From Streptomyces sp. NBS 14/10 (GTDB taxonomy: Bacteria; Actinomycetota; Actinomycetes; Streptomycetales; Streptomycetaceae), in contig NZ_NCSM01000066.1 of NCBI RefSeq assembly GCF_002224125.1, positions 41,731 to 105,730 of the forward strand: a stretch of 64,000 bases of DNA, written 5' to 3'. The translations under genes were made by a program, and so were the position numbers. Every line of letters starts with the position of its first letter. The first letter of the stretch is position 1. Shown here piece by piece: positions 49,547 to 54,101 of the stretch. A model generated the notes under the pieces. That model was not told the origin of the DNA. It was given only the letters and a program-made list of their open reading frames with translations, and did no database searches.

Positions 49547-50698
49547 TTAGGTCTGGACCAATTCGTCGTAGACGCTGAGGACATGGGCGACCGTGTCGTC
49601 CTCCGTCGGCCAGCCCGCGGTCCGCGACCGCCCCGCCGCGGCCAGCTCCACCCGGCGCACCGGATCCGCGAGCAGCCGGATCACCGCACCCGCCAGGTCC
49701 TCCGGCACCCCGTACGGCACCAGTTCGGCCGCCTCTCCCACCAGCTCAGGCACCCCGCCGACCGCCGTGGCCACCAGCGGCACGCCCGCGTGCAGCGCCT
49801 CCTGCGCCAGCAGCGACCGCGCCTCCCATCGGCTGGAGAGCACCGCGACATCGGCCGCAGCCAGCAGCGCGGGCACATCGTCCCGGCGGCCGAGCAGCCG
49901 CACCGGCAGCCCCTCCCCGTCGATCCTGCGCTGCAGCGCCGCCCGGTCCGGCCCCTCCCCCGCGACCGCCAGCAGCGGCTGGGGGTCCAGCGCACGCCAC
50001 ACCCGGGCCGCGTCCAGCAGCGGCCCGAAGCCCCGGTCCAGCACCAGCCGCCCCACCGCGAGCAGCAACGGCCGCTCCACGGCACCCAGTTCGGCCCGCG
50101 CCTTCTGCCGCCACCCGTCCTCCCTGGGCGGCGTGGCGCGCGGCGCGGGCACCGCGACCGGCGCGAGCCGGGCGTCGCGAGCCCCCCGCGCACGAGCCCG
50201 CTCCACCAGATCCGACGACGCGCCCAGCACGATCGCGGCGTGGCGCGCCACCCTGCGCTCTATGAGGCGTACGGCTTGCGCCCGCGCGCCCTCGGCGTGC
50301 GGTTTGCTGTGCCAGGTGACGATCAGCGGCACGCCCCGGCCGTGCAGCGCCAGCACGGCCAGCAGCCCGGACCGCAGCCCGTGCGCATGCACCAGACCCG
50401 CCCCGGCACCTGCCGCCCGCAGCGTCGCGACGGCCCCCGCGTCCGTACGGGCGTCCAGTCCGGCGAACCACGCGCCCGCCTGCGTGAACCCGTACCCCCG
50501 CTCCGCCCGCCACGGCCCGCAGACCGTCACCCGCAGCCCGCGCGCCACCAACCCGGCCGTCAGCGACCGGACATGCACCCCGCTGCCGGAACTGCCGCCG
50601 CCGAGCACTTGGAGGGCGTGCAGGGGCGGCTGCCCATGCGGATTCCCGTGCGGATTCCCGGGCGGCGGGGCCGGTGTGCTGCTCACGGTGCTGCTCAC
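49547..50698 (-). CDS. GT4 glycosyltransferase
   Basis: 383-aa GT-B fold: HALQVLGGGSSGSGVHVRSL acceptor side; RPLLLAVGRLVLDRGFGPLL opens the donor half; SRWEARSLLAQEALHAGVPL the E-x7-E region and GGVPELVGEAAELVPYGVPE. Substrate unknown. GTG 50698. The N-terminus has an NPHGNPHG repeat. A MITE sits 46 bp upstream. Confidence 0.88.
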   Translation of the reverse strand: MSSTVSSTPAPPPGNPHGNPHGQPPLHALQVLGGGSSGSGVHVRSLTAGLVARGLRVTVCGPWRAERGYGFTQAGAWFAGLDARTDAGAVATLRAAGAGAGLVHAHGLRSGLLAVLALHGRGVPLIVTWHSKPHAEGARAQAVRLIERRVARHAAIVLGASSDLVERARARGARDARLAPVAVPAPRATPPREDGWRQKARAELGAVERPLLLAVGRLVLDRGFGPLLDAARVWRALDPQPLLAVAGEGPDRAALQRRIDGEGLPVRLLGRRDDVPALLAAADVAVLSSRWEARSLLAQEALHAGVPLVATAVGGVPELVGEAAELVPYGVPEDLAGAVIRLLADPVRRVELAAAGRSRTAGWPTEDDTVAHVLSVYDELVQT

Positions 50699-50743
50699 GC
50701 GGGAAAAGCTCCTGAGAGGACGGCGTTCGGGCGTGGGGTCTTA

Positions 50744-50906
50744 GGGCCTGTCGTCAAAGAGGGCGTCCTGCTCCCGACGCCTGGCACGGCACCTCGCTGC
50801 GTTGTCGCATCGCCCAAGTACGCCCAGTACGAGGGCGACGCTCCGCCTTGCGAGGCACCGCACCAGACGCCGCTCGCGGCCGGACGCCCCCTTTGACGAC
50901 AGACCC
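50744..50906. mobile_element. MITE-like element, copy 1 (163 bp)
   Basis: Ends are GGGCCTGTCGTCAAAGAGGG and, inverted, GGGTCTGTCGTCAAAGGGGG: about 22-bp terminal inverted repeats with two to three mismatches. TA flanks both ends (50742-50743, 50907-50908) as a target duplication typical of IS630/Tc1-like or some IS5 elements. No ORF; the inside is itself partly palindromic (CGCTGCGTTGTCGC...). Copy 2 at 53010-53172 differs at four of 163 bases. Confidence 0.88.
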
Positions 50907-50908
50907 TA

Positions 50909-51166
50909 GGCGCGCGGCGGTACGGATGCGCCCCGCCCAGGATGCCAGTCTTCAGGCCGCCCCCACCGCCACGGCCCCGCACCGGGCCCGCCGTCGGCGC
51001 GCCCGTACGTCCACGGATTCACCCGTACGGGGGACAGCACCGAACACCGGAACGCCCTCGGGCCCCTGCGGAGCGGGCGGCCCGGCCCGCCGGCACTGCG
51101 GCGCGGGCGGCCCGGCCCAGGCTCGTGGCCACCGGCCCTCGGCGGCGGCGGACCCGCGGCCGACAG
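50909..51166. other. Intergenic stretch after MITE copy 1
   Basis: GC-rich, with a GCGGGCGGCCCGGCCC direct repeat near 51075 and 51105; no gene seen. Confidence 0.35.
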
Positions 51167-52918
51167 TCAGCGCGTCGCCCGCGCCGTCTCCAGAAGCTCT
51201 TCCGCGTGGGCGCGGGCGAGTTCGGAGTCCTCCTGGCCCGCCAGCATGCGCGACAGCTCCCGTACCCGGTCCTCGCCCTCCATCGCCTTCACACCGCTGC
51301 GCGTGACCGCCCCGTCGTTGGTCTTCTCCACCACCAAGTGCCGGTCGGCGAAGGCCGCGACCTGGGGCAGATGGGTGACGACCACGACCTGCGCGGTCTG
51401 GGCGAGCTTGGCCAGCCGTCGGCCGACCTCGACCGCCGCCTTGCCGCCGACGCCCTGGTCCACCTCGTCGAAGAGATAAGTCGGCACGGGGTCGGAGCCC
51501 GCGAAGACCACCTCCACCGCGAGCATCACCCGGGACAGCTCACCGCCGGACGCCCCCTTGGCGATCGGCCGGGGCGGGGCGCCCGGGTGGGGGGCGAGCA
51601 GCAGCTCGACCTCGTCGGCTCCGTGCGGCCCGAACAGCACCGCACGGCCGCCCACCTCGATGCCCGCCGTCTCCTCCGCGGCCTCGCTCTGGCTGATCGC
51701 GAAGGTCACCCGGGCATGCGGCATCGCGAGCGAGGCCAGCTCCGCGGTGACCGCGTCGGCGAAGCGCGCCGCCGCCTCCGTACGGGCGTCGGTGAGCGCC
51801 TGCGCGAGCTCGCCCAGTTCGGCGCGGAGCGCGTCGCGCTCGGCGGTCAGCTCGCCGATACGGTCGTCGTCGCCGTCCAGTTCGGCCAGCCGCGCGGCGC
51901 CCTGTTCCGCCCAGGCCAGCACGTCCGCGATGTCCTGGCCGTACTTGCGGGTCAGATGGGACAGCGCGGCCCGGCGCTCCTCGACGACCGCCAGCCGCCG
52001 CGGATCGGCGTCCAGATCGTCCGCGTAGCCCGCGAGCTCCCCGGCCACATCGGACATCAGGATGCCGACCTCGGCGATCCGATCGGCGAGCGCGGCGAGC
52101 TTCGGATCGTGGGAGCGCACGCCCTCCAGCGCCCGGTGCGCGCCCGCTACGAGGCTGGCCGCATCCACGCCCTCGGGGTCCTCCGGGTGCCCGGCCAGCG
52201 CGGCGTGCGCGGCGGTGGCGGCGGAGGCGAGGGCTTCGGCGTGGCCCAGGCGCTCCGCCTCGGCGGCGAGCTCGGTGTCCTCGCCGGGCAGCGGTTCGGC
52301 CGCGGCGATCTCCTCGAGGCCGAAGCGCAGCAGATCGGCCTCCTGCGCCCGCTCCCGCGCCCGGGTGGTCAGCTCGTCCAGCTCGGCGGCGACCGCGCGC
52401 AGCCGCCGGTAGGCGGCCCCGTACTTCTCCAGCGGCCCGGCGACCGCGGCTCCCGCGTAACGGTCCAGGGCCTGCCGCTGCCGGGCCGGGCGCAGCAGCC
52501 CCTGCTGATCGGTCTGGCCGTGCACAGCCACCAGGTCGTCCGCCAGCTCGCCCAGCAGCCCCACGGGCACCGAGCGGCCGCCCACATGGGCGCGGGAACG
52601 GCCTTCGGCGGAGACCGTACGGCTGATCAGCAGCGCGCCGTCGTCGAGTTCGGCGCCCGCCTCCTCGGCCCGGACGGCCACCGTCGACCGCCCGTCGACG
52701 GTGATCCGGCCCTCGACGACCGCCGCCTTGGCGCCGATCCGCACCAGGGCCGCGTCGGCCCGCCCGCCCAGCAGCAGGCCGAGACTGGTGACGACCATGG
52801 TCTTACCCGCTCCGGTCTCACCGGTCACCGCGGTGAAGCCGGGCGACAGTTCGACGACGGCGTCGTCGATGACGCCCAGGGCACGTATCCGCATCTCCTC
52901 CAGCACGCCCACGACCAT
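51167..52918 (-). CDS. recN: DNA repair protein RecN
   Basis: 583-aa SMC-like ATPase. Walker A GETGAGKT (33-40) after FTAVTGETG; QTDQQGLLRPARQRQALDRY; long Ala/Glu/Arg coiled-coil about 170-370; signature GASGGELSRVMLAVEVVF and Walker B TYLFDEVDQGVGGKAA. It loads at double-strand breaks. ATG 52918 is chosen; the frame reads on upstream into the MITE, which is not RecN. Bracketed by two MITE copies, and in the tlyA-nadK-recN order usual in Streptomyces. Confidence 0.95.
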   Translation of the reverse strand: MVVGVLEEMRIRALGVIDDAVVELSPGFTAVTGETGAGKTMVVTSLGLLLGGRADAALVRIGAKAAVVEGRITVDGRSTVAVRAEEAGAELDDGALLISRTVSAEGRSRAHVGGRSVPVGLLGELADDLVAVHGQTDQQGLLRPARQRQALDRYAGAAVAGPLEKYGAAYRRLRAVAAELDELTTRARERAQEADLLRFGLEEIAAAEPLPGEDTELAAEAERLGHAEALASAATAAHAALAGHPEDPEGVDAASLVAGAHRALEGVRSHDPKLAALADRIAEVGILMSDVAGELAGYADDLDADPRRLAVVEERRAALSHLTRKYGQDIADVLAWAEQGAARLAELDGDDDRIGELTAERDALRAELGELAQALTDARTEAAARFADAVTAELASLAMPHARVTFAISQSEAAEETAGIEVGGRAVLFGPHGADEVELLLAPHPGAPPRPIAKGASGGELSRVMLAVEVVFAGSDPVPTYLFDEVDQGVGGKAAVEVGRRLAKLAQTAQVVVVTHLPQVAAFADRHLVVEKTNDGAVTRSGVKAMEGEDRVRELSRMLAGQEDSELARAHAEELLETARATR

Positions 52919-53009
52919 ACGAGGTTTCACGGCCTCGATGCGACGGCGGGTTCCTCCTATGGGGCGCCCGGTCCGGACTGAGCCCGCCCTCGGCGCCCCG
53001 TCGGTGGTA

Positions 53010-53172
53010 GGGCCTGTCGTCAAAGGGGGCGCCCTGCTCCCGACGCCTGGCACGGCGCCTCGCTGCGTTGTCGCATCGCCCAAGTACGCCCAGTACGAGG
53101 GCGACGCTCCGCCTTGCGAGGCACCGCACCAGACGCCGCTCGCGGCCGGACGCCCCCTTTTACGACAGACCC
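53010..53172. mobile_element. MITE-like element, copy 2 (163 bp)
   Basis: Same orientation and length as copy 1, TA at 53008-53009 and 53173-53174. Its right end abuts the nadK stop: the TAG codon is the flanking TA plus the first base of the element. It sits in the mRNA between nadK and recN and could form a long hairpin. Confidence 0.88.
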
Positions 53173-54101
53173 TAATGCGGTGCGCCGCGCCAGCCCGCGA
53201 CCGGGAGGGCGAACTTCGCCACCAGCCGGTCCGTGAACGACGCGTGGTGCAGCCGCGCCAGCCGCACCGGCACCGCCCCCCGCCGCACCTCCACCCGCGC
53301 GCCGGCGGGCAGTTCGACGGTGCGCCGCCCGTCGCACCACAGCACCCCGTGCGGGGTCTGCGGCTGCACCTCCACGGCGAGCACCGAGCGCGGCGAGGTG
53401 ACCAGGGGCTTGGCGAAGAGGGCGTGCGCGCTGATGGGGACCATCAGCAGCGCCTCGACCTCGGGCCACACCACGGGCCCGCCCGCCGAGAAGGCGTACG
53501 CCGTCGAGCCGGTCGGGGTCGCACAGACAACGCCGTCGCCGCCGAAGCGGGAGACGGGGCGGCCGTCGACCTCGGTGACGACCTCCAGCAGGCGCTCGCG
53601 CGCGGCCTTCTCGACCGACGCCTCGTTCAGCGCCCAGTCGGTGTGCACGATCTGCCCGTCGGTTCGGACCAGCACATCGATGGTCATCCGCTCTTCGACC
53701 TCGTAGCTGCGGGTCACGACCCGGTCCACGACCTTGTCCAGGTCGTCCCGCTCTGCCTCGGCGAGGAAGCCGACCCGGCCCAGGTTGACGCCGAGCATCG
53801 GCACCCCGGAGATCCGCGAGAACTCCGCGCCGCGCAGCAGCGTGCCGTCACCGCCGAGGACGATCAGCAGCTCGCAGCCGTCCAGGACGTCCGCGCCCGC
53901 GTCGACCAGCTCGACCGCGGCCGGCAGCGGCAGGTCCGCGGCCTCCGCGGCCAGCACCCGCACCCCGATGCCGCAGCGCAGCAGTCCTTGGACGACCAGC
54001 TCGGCGCTGCGAATGGCCGCGGGGCGGCCGGTGTGCGCCAGCAGGAATACGGTGCGCTCCGCTGCTGCCGAGGCTGCTGCTGAAGCTTCTGAAGTGGTCA
54101 A
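53172..54101 (-). CDS. nadK: NAD kinase
   Basis: 309-aa enzyme phosphorylating NAD to NADP. GGDGTLLRGAEF (GGDGT 83-87), GVNLGRVGFLAEAERDDL, and GGDGVVCATPTGSTAYAFSA are the family motifs. TTG 54101 overlaps the tlyA stop (TTGA) with GGAGGGG 5 nt upstream. The stop codon TAG at 53174-53172 is formed by a MITE insertion edge, so the C-terminus may be altered from the ancestral one. Confidence 0.95.
   Translation of the reverse strand: MTTSEASAAASAAAERTVFLLAHTGRPAAIRSAELVVQGLLRCGIGVRVLAAEAADLPLPAAVELVDAGADVLDGCELLIVLGGDGTLLRGAEFSRISGVPMLGVNLGRVGFLAEAERDDLDKVVDRVVTRSYEVEERMTIDVLVRTDGQIVHTDWALNEASVEKAARERLLEVVTEVDGRPVSRFGGDGVVCATPTGSTAYAFSAGGPVVWPEVEALLMVPISAHALFAKPLVTSPRSVLAVEVQPQTPHGVLWCDGRRTVELPAGARVEVRRGAVPVRLARLHHASFTDRLVAKFALPVAGWRGAPH

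Follow-up and report, generated by a model that had tools for sequence, protein, structure and literature searches.

Two TA-flanked MITEs bracketing recN in a Streptomyces genome and the folded core they share with elements of other ends

The recN locus and its two 163-bp elements

The window, by which we mean the whole stretch of 64,000 nucleotides of Streptomyces sp. NBS 14/10 DNA that was analysed, carries recN (TIGR00634, 543 bits) between a NAD kinase gene and a GT4-type glycosyltransferase gene. Two repeats of 163 bp lie beside recN, copy 1 between the end of recN and the start of the glycosyltransferase gene, and copy 2 in the interval that separates recN from the NAD kinase gene (Table 1). 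The sequence-only reading had taken them for near-identical MITEs that bracket recN in direct orientation, with terminal inverted repeats, TA on either side and no transposase nearby. Direct reading bore out the coordinates of both copies, the TA on either side of each, and an ungapped match of 159 of 163 bases (4 differences). The terminal inverted repeats were the longest inverted pairs in the window (30 nt including the TA, 90% and 87% complementary), and the two copies, with recN between them, were confirmed to run in the same direction. At 163 bp the element is too short to encode a transposase, as befits a MITE, and the absence of a transposase nearby holds for the three neighbours examined (recN, NAD kinase and the GT4-type glycosyltransferase). 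Folding of copy 1 compared with 200 shuffles gave z values of -8.2 for the plus strand and -13.1 for the minus strand. The folding strand of the element is hereafter called S, and is the minus strand for both window copies.

Table 1. Positions of the two elements, their parts and the neighbouring genes in the window
Feature	Positions	Strand	Basis
GT4-type glycosyltransferase gene	49547..50698	-	PF00534
TA target duplication, left of copy 1	50742..50743	.	direct reading
MITE copy 1 (folding strand S)	50744..50906	-	reading, inverted repeats, genome copies, fold
Terminal inverted repeat, one end of copy 1, GGGCCTGTCGTCAAAG...	50744..50765	+	
Conserved folded core, copy 1	50773..50874	-	
Internal loop 3' side, copy 1, CGACAACGCAGCGA on S	50794..50807	-	
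Internal loop 5' side, copy 1, TCGCAAGGCGGAG on S	50841..50853	-	
Terminal inverted repeat, other end of copy 1, GGGTCTGTCGTCAAAG...	50885..50906	-	
TA target duplication, right of copy 1	50907..50908	.	
recN	51167..52921	-	TIGR00634, 542.8 bits; start assigned in present analysis
TA target duplication, left of copy 2	53008..53009	.	direct reading
MITE copy 2 (folding strand S)	53010..53172	-	
Conserved folded core, copy 2	53039..53140	-	
Internal loop 3' side, copy 2	53060..53073	-	
Internal loop 5' side, copy 2	53107..53119	-	
NAD kinase TAG stop: duplicated TA + end base of copy 2	53172..53174	-	
NAD kinase gene	53172..54101	-	NF002892, 448.6 bits

The host genome comprises 12.1 Mb in 127 contigs, and both window elements lie on contig C91. 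A search for copies in this genome listed 24 matches, of which six were full-length (93-100% identity, E 3e-80 to 4e-65); two of the six are on the minus strand of their own contigs, and the genome also holds fragments of the element and single ends. Since there are six full-length copies and the fold goes far beyond that of shuffled sequences, the repeats are not a product of chance. Gene conversion between the recN copies, which had been suggested as one source of their similarity, left no sign: the two show 4 differences, as against 3 differences and a 5-base gap to the copy on contig C36, and are no closer to each other than each is to that copy.

Derivatives of several kinds were seen in the same genome. 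A 47-bp palindrome at C95:65032-65078 (L013) consists of two element ends only, flanked by TA, and is a minimal derivative without the core. Two mosaics of about 130 bp, at C96:78880-79006 (L012) and C34:949470-949599 (L015), have the middle of the core swapped for another hairpin, CCCCCAGCTACCGCTGGGAGG..., and sequences of this kind also flank core fragments at C34:322663 (L011) and C62:76769 (L021). Four cores (L258-L261) carry a common hairpin insert of about 40 nt at the tip, GGATGGGGTATCCCC...GGGGAAGG, and are bordered by three kinds of ends. Lone ends with one mismatch occur at C43:15895, C51:189078, C57:263123, C80:64268 and C95:86004, all on the minus strand; TA adjoins four of these five, which are either remnants or lone sites.

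We read 18 orthologous NAD kinase-recN regions, 17 from the same genus and one from the same order, and searched them for the letter pattern of the loop. The interval between NAD kinase and recN was without the core in all 18, so that relatives do have the empty sites expected of a mobile element. The core was likewise absent downstream of recN in 18 of 18, where 14 of the stretches reach the glycosyltransferase gene and the other four were searched over at most 600 bases. Mobility of the element is thus supported by six full copies, by the TA on either side of the window copies and by core-free sites in relatives. The NAD kinase frame ends in most relatives at the same place or within one or two residues of it, with TAG in 9 of 18. 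In the window, the NAD kinase TAG combines the duplicated TA with the G at the end of the element, and the simplest reading is that copy 2 inserted into a TAG stop codon and restored it. When the flanks of copy 2 are joined at a single TA, however, the NAD kinase strand reads CAT TAC and not CAT TAG, a misfit with a formerly intact TAG. Either the base outside the far TA, dispensable once the element had inserted, has since mutated, or the stop was made by the element.

Distribution, insertion sites and helper insertion sequences

The whole element, when searched against the genus, matched 161 of 199 Streptomyces genomes, and the matches listed span mostly positions 24-130. The flanks of these core matches again formed inverted repeats, of different sequences. 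The ends of 104 TA-flanked elements showed 30 distinct versions of the first ten bases, some of them variants of one another, and fell by eye into at least 10 kinds; 70 of the 104 were exactly 162 bp long, many of these coming from few genomes with uniform copies. A covariance model built from 65 cores (R1) matched 176 of the 199 Streptomyces genomes, with 16 to 67 copies per genome at E 1e-5 in seven genomes picked for high copy number. R1 found 12 cores in the host genome, of which the six beyond the full copies bear other ends. Among the listed plasmid records with element matches, 49 of 50 were from Streptomyces. These genome comparisons show a core of about 100 nt common to Streptomyces MITEs of similar length with many different ends, and the core is older than the ends.

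Insertion sites were studied in 154 elements (two of them, L298 and L300, from outside the genus) after excluding loci shorter than 1800 bases, core alignment scores below 60 and repeated flanks. Genes were placed with a purpose-made caller, which is rough and whose codon statistics were trained on the same loci. TA was found on both sides of 104 elements, and CTA on both sides of 88 of those 104. The stop codon of a neighbour overlapped the boundary in 83 of 154 elements as compared to 16 of 73 unoccupied CTAG sites that lie in the same stretches but not within a called gene (Fisher p 7e-6, with many elements from a handful of genomes and few control sites), lying on the left in 44 and on the right in 44. 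The gene context was convergent for 62 elements and divergent for 10, while in 32 the genes ran with (++) and in 34 against (--) the folding strand; 16 elements had no neighbour within reach and 2 were flagged inside a gene. An orientation bias relative to host genes, hinted at early by a ratio of about 14 to 4 in a small set judged by eye, was gone at n=154. Orientation to genes being random (++ 32, -- 34), there was no sign of a host 3'-UTR role. At one locus (L230, G064:C1:598500-601000) an insertion sequence (IS) with ends GGGGGTGTCTTCAAAT abuts a core-bearing MITE with other ends, and the TA between them is common to both.

From the TA duplication an IS630/Tc1-like or IS5-group helper had been proposed, and ISs with matching ends speak for the second. 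IS5-family ISs with TA flanks and GGGTCCGTCTTCAAAG-type ends are present in the host genome and in relatives. The host-genome IS is 914 bp long, is flanked by TA, has the ends GGGTCCGTCTTCAAAG and AGGTCCGTCTTCAAAC (with 2 and 4 mismatches to GGGYCTGTCGTCAAAG over 16 positions) and encodes a transposase of the IS5 family (NCBIfam NF033580, 275 bits). Of 30 transposase loci found by searching the genus, 11, this one among them, had GGGTCCGTCTTCAAAG-type ends with TA on both sides. The Streptomyces plasmid NZ_CP130719.1 carries an IS5-family IS whose ends agree with GGGCCTGTCGTCAAAG at 16 of 16 and 14 of 16 positions, with TA outside both; its transposase is split over two frames (NF033580, 132 bits and 102 bits, cut-off 110), and an additional small gene lies inside the ends. 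Three other plasmid stretches have an end GGGCCTGTCTTCAAAG (one mismatch), and one of these adjoins an annotated IS5-family transposase. An IS with the exact window ends was not found in the host genome by an end pattern scan in which part of the pairs was examined; the end pattern alone is weak, with 40 host-genome matches at up to 2 mismatches as against 25 with the reversed pattern, and searches for IS ends at loose settings gave mostly chance inverted repeats. An IS5 helper suffices and an IS630/Tc1 helper is not needed. The IS5-family element at L636:2503-3849 has a two-frame transposase and an extra open frame of 142 aa between transposase and end, a possible passenger. We also considered the core as a fragment of a helper IS and rejected this: the transposase gene nearly fills the 914-bp IS, and a core pattern matched only one of the eight plasmid stretches inspected, L640, which has a MITE-type end and no annotated transposase.

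Outside the genus, R1 gave 6 of its 14 matching genomes in a sample of 296 from the phylum. Five of these six were read (a match near a contig edge in G249 was left out) and showed inverted ends of further sequences around the shared loop. For a wider view, the genome_contigs collection (84,980 species genomes by description) was scanned with a 21-base signature of the internal loop, TGGCAAGGCGG and AACGCAGCCA separated by 20-50 bases of any kind. The scan gave at least 118 loci, against a chance expectation of about a dozen with no preference among 31 lengths, a rough figure from base composition alone; 106 among the 118 loci listed had lengths of 57-62, in a permitted range of 41-71. The inverted-repeat score of the arms was above 20 shuffles in 87 of the 99 usable loci among those listed (usable meaning enough flank and distinct cores, with related copies remaining), and many elements measured 155-170 bp. 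The titles of 80 of the 118 records name Nocardioides, Pseudonocardia, Frankia, Lewinella, Bacteroides, Clostridia, Selenomonas, Verrucomicrobiaceae, Lentisphaerae, Burkholderiales, Geothrix, Geobacteraceae and others, which we take to represent Actinomycetota, Bacteroidota, Bacillota, Verrucomicrobiota, Acidobacteriota and Proteobacteria; judging by title, most of the records from outside Actinomycetota are MAGs, with a single Lewinella MAG accounting for 10 of the 80. A Sphingobium match resembles coding sequence and is probably due to chance. A further model (R2) matched 17 of 17 source genomes, more than once in 15 of them and up to 98 times, these genomes having been picked for holding a match. 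The occurrence of the same core with different ends in many bacterial groups beyond Streptomyces is strongly supported. Viral contigs, which served as an approximate background to the genome scan, gave 63 matches to a looser pattern, with lengths spread across 40-70 without a peak and three marginally significant arms, none of them convincing; phage records gave no match.

Fold, covariation and strand asymmetry

Covariation was assessed in two alignments. The first (A2) holds 65 cores out of 69 distinct references, L219-L221 being left out for a replaced outer stem and L004 for a 5-base gap. The second (A3) holds 56 wider cores out of 63 candidates, without L405, L409, L418, L476, L501, L505 and L296, which were judged chance, oversized or odd. 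In A2, 98.1% of cells pair, compared to only 25-52% for slid structures; two-sided changes occur in 17 of 34 pairs and in 168 cells as against 35 after shuffling, and covariation beats the controls on all five measures. In A3, 94.0% of cells pair, the covariation score is 0.528 against 0.131 shuffled, and there are 176 two-sided cells against 63. Four of the five measures beat shuffling here, and the fifth, the number of pairs with two-sided changes, did not (8 against 7.7 shuffled, 329/500). The unpaired internal loop is nearly invariant in the 65 cores of A2, which were selected without the loop pattern; in A3 the scan pattern itself prescribed the loop letters for most rows, so that their invariance proves nothing and the stems alone count.

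Mismatches in the arms were counted on S in dereplicated elements, 56 of 65 wider ones and 58 of 64 from Streptomyces being usable. G·T mismatches outnumbered A·C mismatches by 435 to 64 in both sets together. The ratio was 186:33 in the 56 wider elements (130:21 in the inner arms, 56:12 in the outer 20 bases) and 249:31 in the 58 Streptomyces elements (200:19 and 49:12, respectively). Counted by element, with the elements sharing ancestry, the G·T excess prevailed by 51 to 1 in the wider set (4 equal) and by 47 to 4 in Streptomyces (7 equal). When split by record title, 30 actinobacterial elements gave 118:16 with an A·C excess in none, and elements from outside Actinomycetota gave 42:9 (13 to 0, 3 equal; 16 of 19 usable). 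S was the stabler strand in all 66 cores compared, in 92 of 99 wider elements and in 58 of 67 variable inner hairpins. The seven exceptions among the 99 (L404, L409, L418, L433, L455, L457, L496) include one Burkholderiales, one Sideroxydans and three Verrucomicrobiota (L418, L433, L457). Since upkeep of a palindrome at the DNA level predicts no preferred side, the one-sided G·T excess points to folding of S, as RNA or as single-stranded DNA. A C-to-T mutation bias on S is a possible mimic of this excess.

With respect to replication, the folding strand pointed toward the origin in 27 of 35 listed copies of one genome out of 12, G151 (27:8, p 0.002). A replication-arm bias as a general property was rejected, being absent among the copies listed for the other 11 genomes (71:69, or 51:50 without G012).

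Interpretation and comparison with known systems

The six full copies, the TA on both sides and the recN flanks without the core in 18 of 18 relatives uphold the assignment as MITEs. We give a probability of roughly 0.6 to the reading that these mobile MITEs are moved by an IS5-family helper and that their core is kept as a folded RNA of one strand, which aids persistence or spread. Each repeat would then be a non-autonomous DNA transposon, the ends of which are presumably recognised by an IS5-family transposase encoded elsewhere and acting in trans. Insertion would occur at TA, mostly within CTAG and often at the TA of a stop codon, and would be nearly harmless there because the G at the element's end completes TAG. 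Insertion at TA/CTAG is supported by the anatomy, the empty sites and the site statistics, from which we infer the act of transposition itself. The core module, which we did not detect in the helper elements inspected, would come into play on transcription of S, perhaps by read-through. Covariation and the one-sided G·T excess suggest that this RNA folds into a rod of about 160 nt whose internal loop is asymmetric (GGC/AAG/GCGG against C/AA/CGC/A/GCC). Its conservation would best be explained by a widespread bacterial factor that recognises the loop and so lets the element persist or spread, and the ends may change to suit whichever helper is present. Random orientation to genes and the lack of replication bias outside G151 fit a benefit to the element and not to a host gene. 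Only tentatively do we extend this to a bacteria-wide class of selfish structured RNAs, in which a module of about 100 nt with a near-fixed asymmetric loop would have been carried across phyla by one set of transposon ends after another, its carrier being protected or promoted through a universal cellular component that binds the module; such an extension is possible, though it may well prove wrong.

The one-strand G·T excess and the extrahelical bases are equally expected if S folds as single-stranded DNA while it is replicated or transferred and a hairpin-binding enzyme then recognises it, as happens at attC sites and IS200/IS605 ends, and the 27:8 bias of G151 agrees with this. We hold it to be unlikely, because TA duplication and IS5-type ends indicate a double-strand DDE transposase and because, among the copies listed, the replication-arm bias is absent in the other 11 genomes. 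It is also conceivable, if rather improbable, that the elements are ordinary MITEs in which the core survives as a neutral remnant of a single ancient lineage with swapped ends, its covariation arising through template switching between the arms. Palindromes can indeed self-correct, and the mosaics at C96:78880 and C34:949470 show module shuffling; template switching, however, yields perfect pairs and not a lasting one-strand G·T excess, and it does not account for an unpaired loop that is near-invariant in 65 cores and was recovered through R1 in five genomes outside the genus. A regulatory RNA or terminator of the host, maintained at its site, would suit the strong fold and the convergent placement of 62 of 154 elements, but is largely refuted, and thus very improbable, by the missing core at these sites in 18 of 18 relatives, the random orientation to genes and the TA with matching IS ends. 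Of the conserved RNA that the sequence-only reading had set against a MITE, vertical conservation in place therefore fell, whereas RNA-like conservation of structure was found, alongside mobility.

Scans of Rfam 15 with 18 loci gave three unrelated RNAs only at the gathering score, and weak matches to unrelated eukaryotic families, or none, at permissive settings. Among the open-licence papers listed by our searches none describes the core, and an earlier description, as in subscription papers or preprints, is possible. A 2024 review of prokaryotic MITEs (PMC10969869) does not mention Streptomyces, and no such core appears in the passages covered. The recN elements share with IS5-family MITEs the short length, terminal inverted repeats, TA duplication, many copies and a helper in trans, but add to these a structured core common to varied ends and bacterial groups. 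The Correia/NEMIS elements, known from Neisseria, are likewise small and TA-duplicating, with transcripts that fold into hairpins, and are alike by description, as are the ERIC and RU-2 repeats of enterobacteria, which are small mobile intergenic repeats. Integron attC sites and REP sequences form one-strand hairpins with extrahelical bases, but are moved by tyrosine recombinases or Y1 transposases, without TA duplication or IS5-type ends; nor does the core have a replication strand bias of their kind (51:50 in 10 genomes among the copies listed, G151 alone being biased). MITEs are usually viewed as decayed leftovers of insertion sequences with meaningless interiors. In the present elements the interior proves more durable than the ends, the same fold recurring within differently ended elements of distant bacteria. 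If this fold functions as RNA, Rfam would be lacking a very widespread structured RNA, one that would help account for the success of some MITEs.
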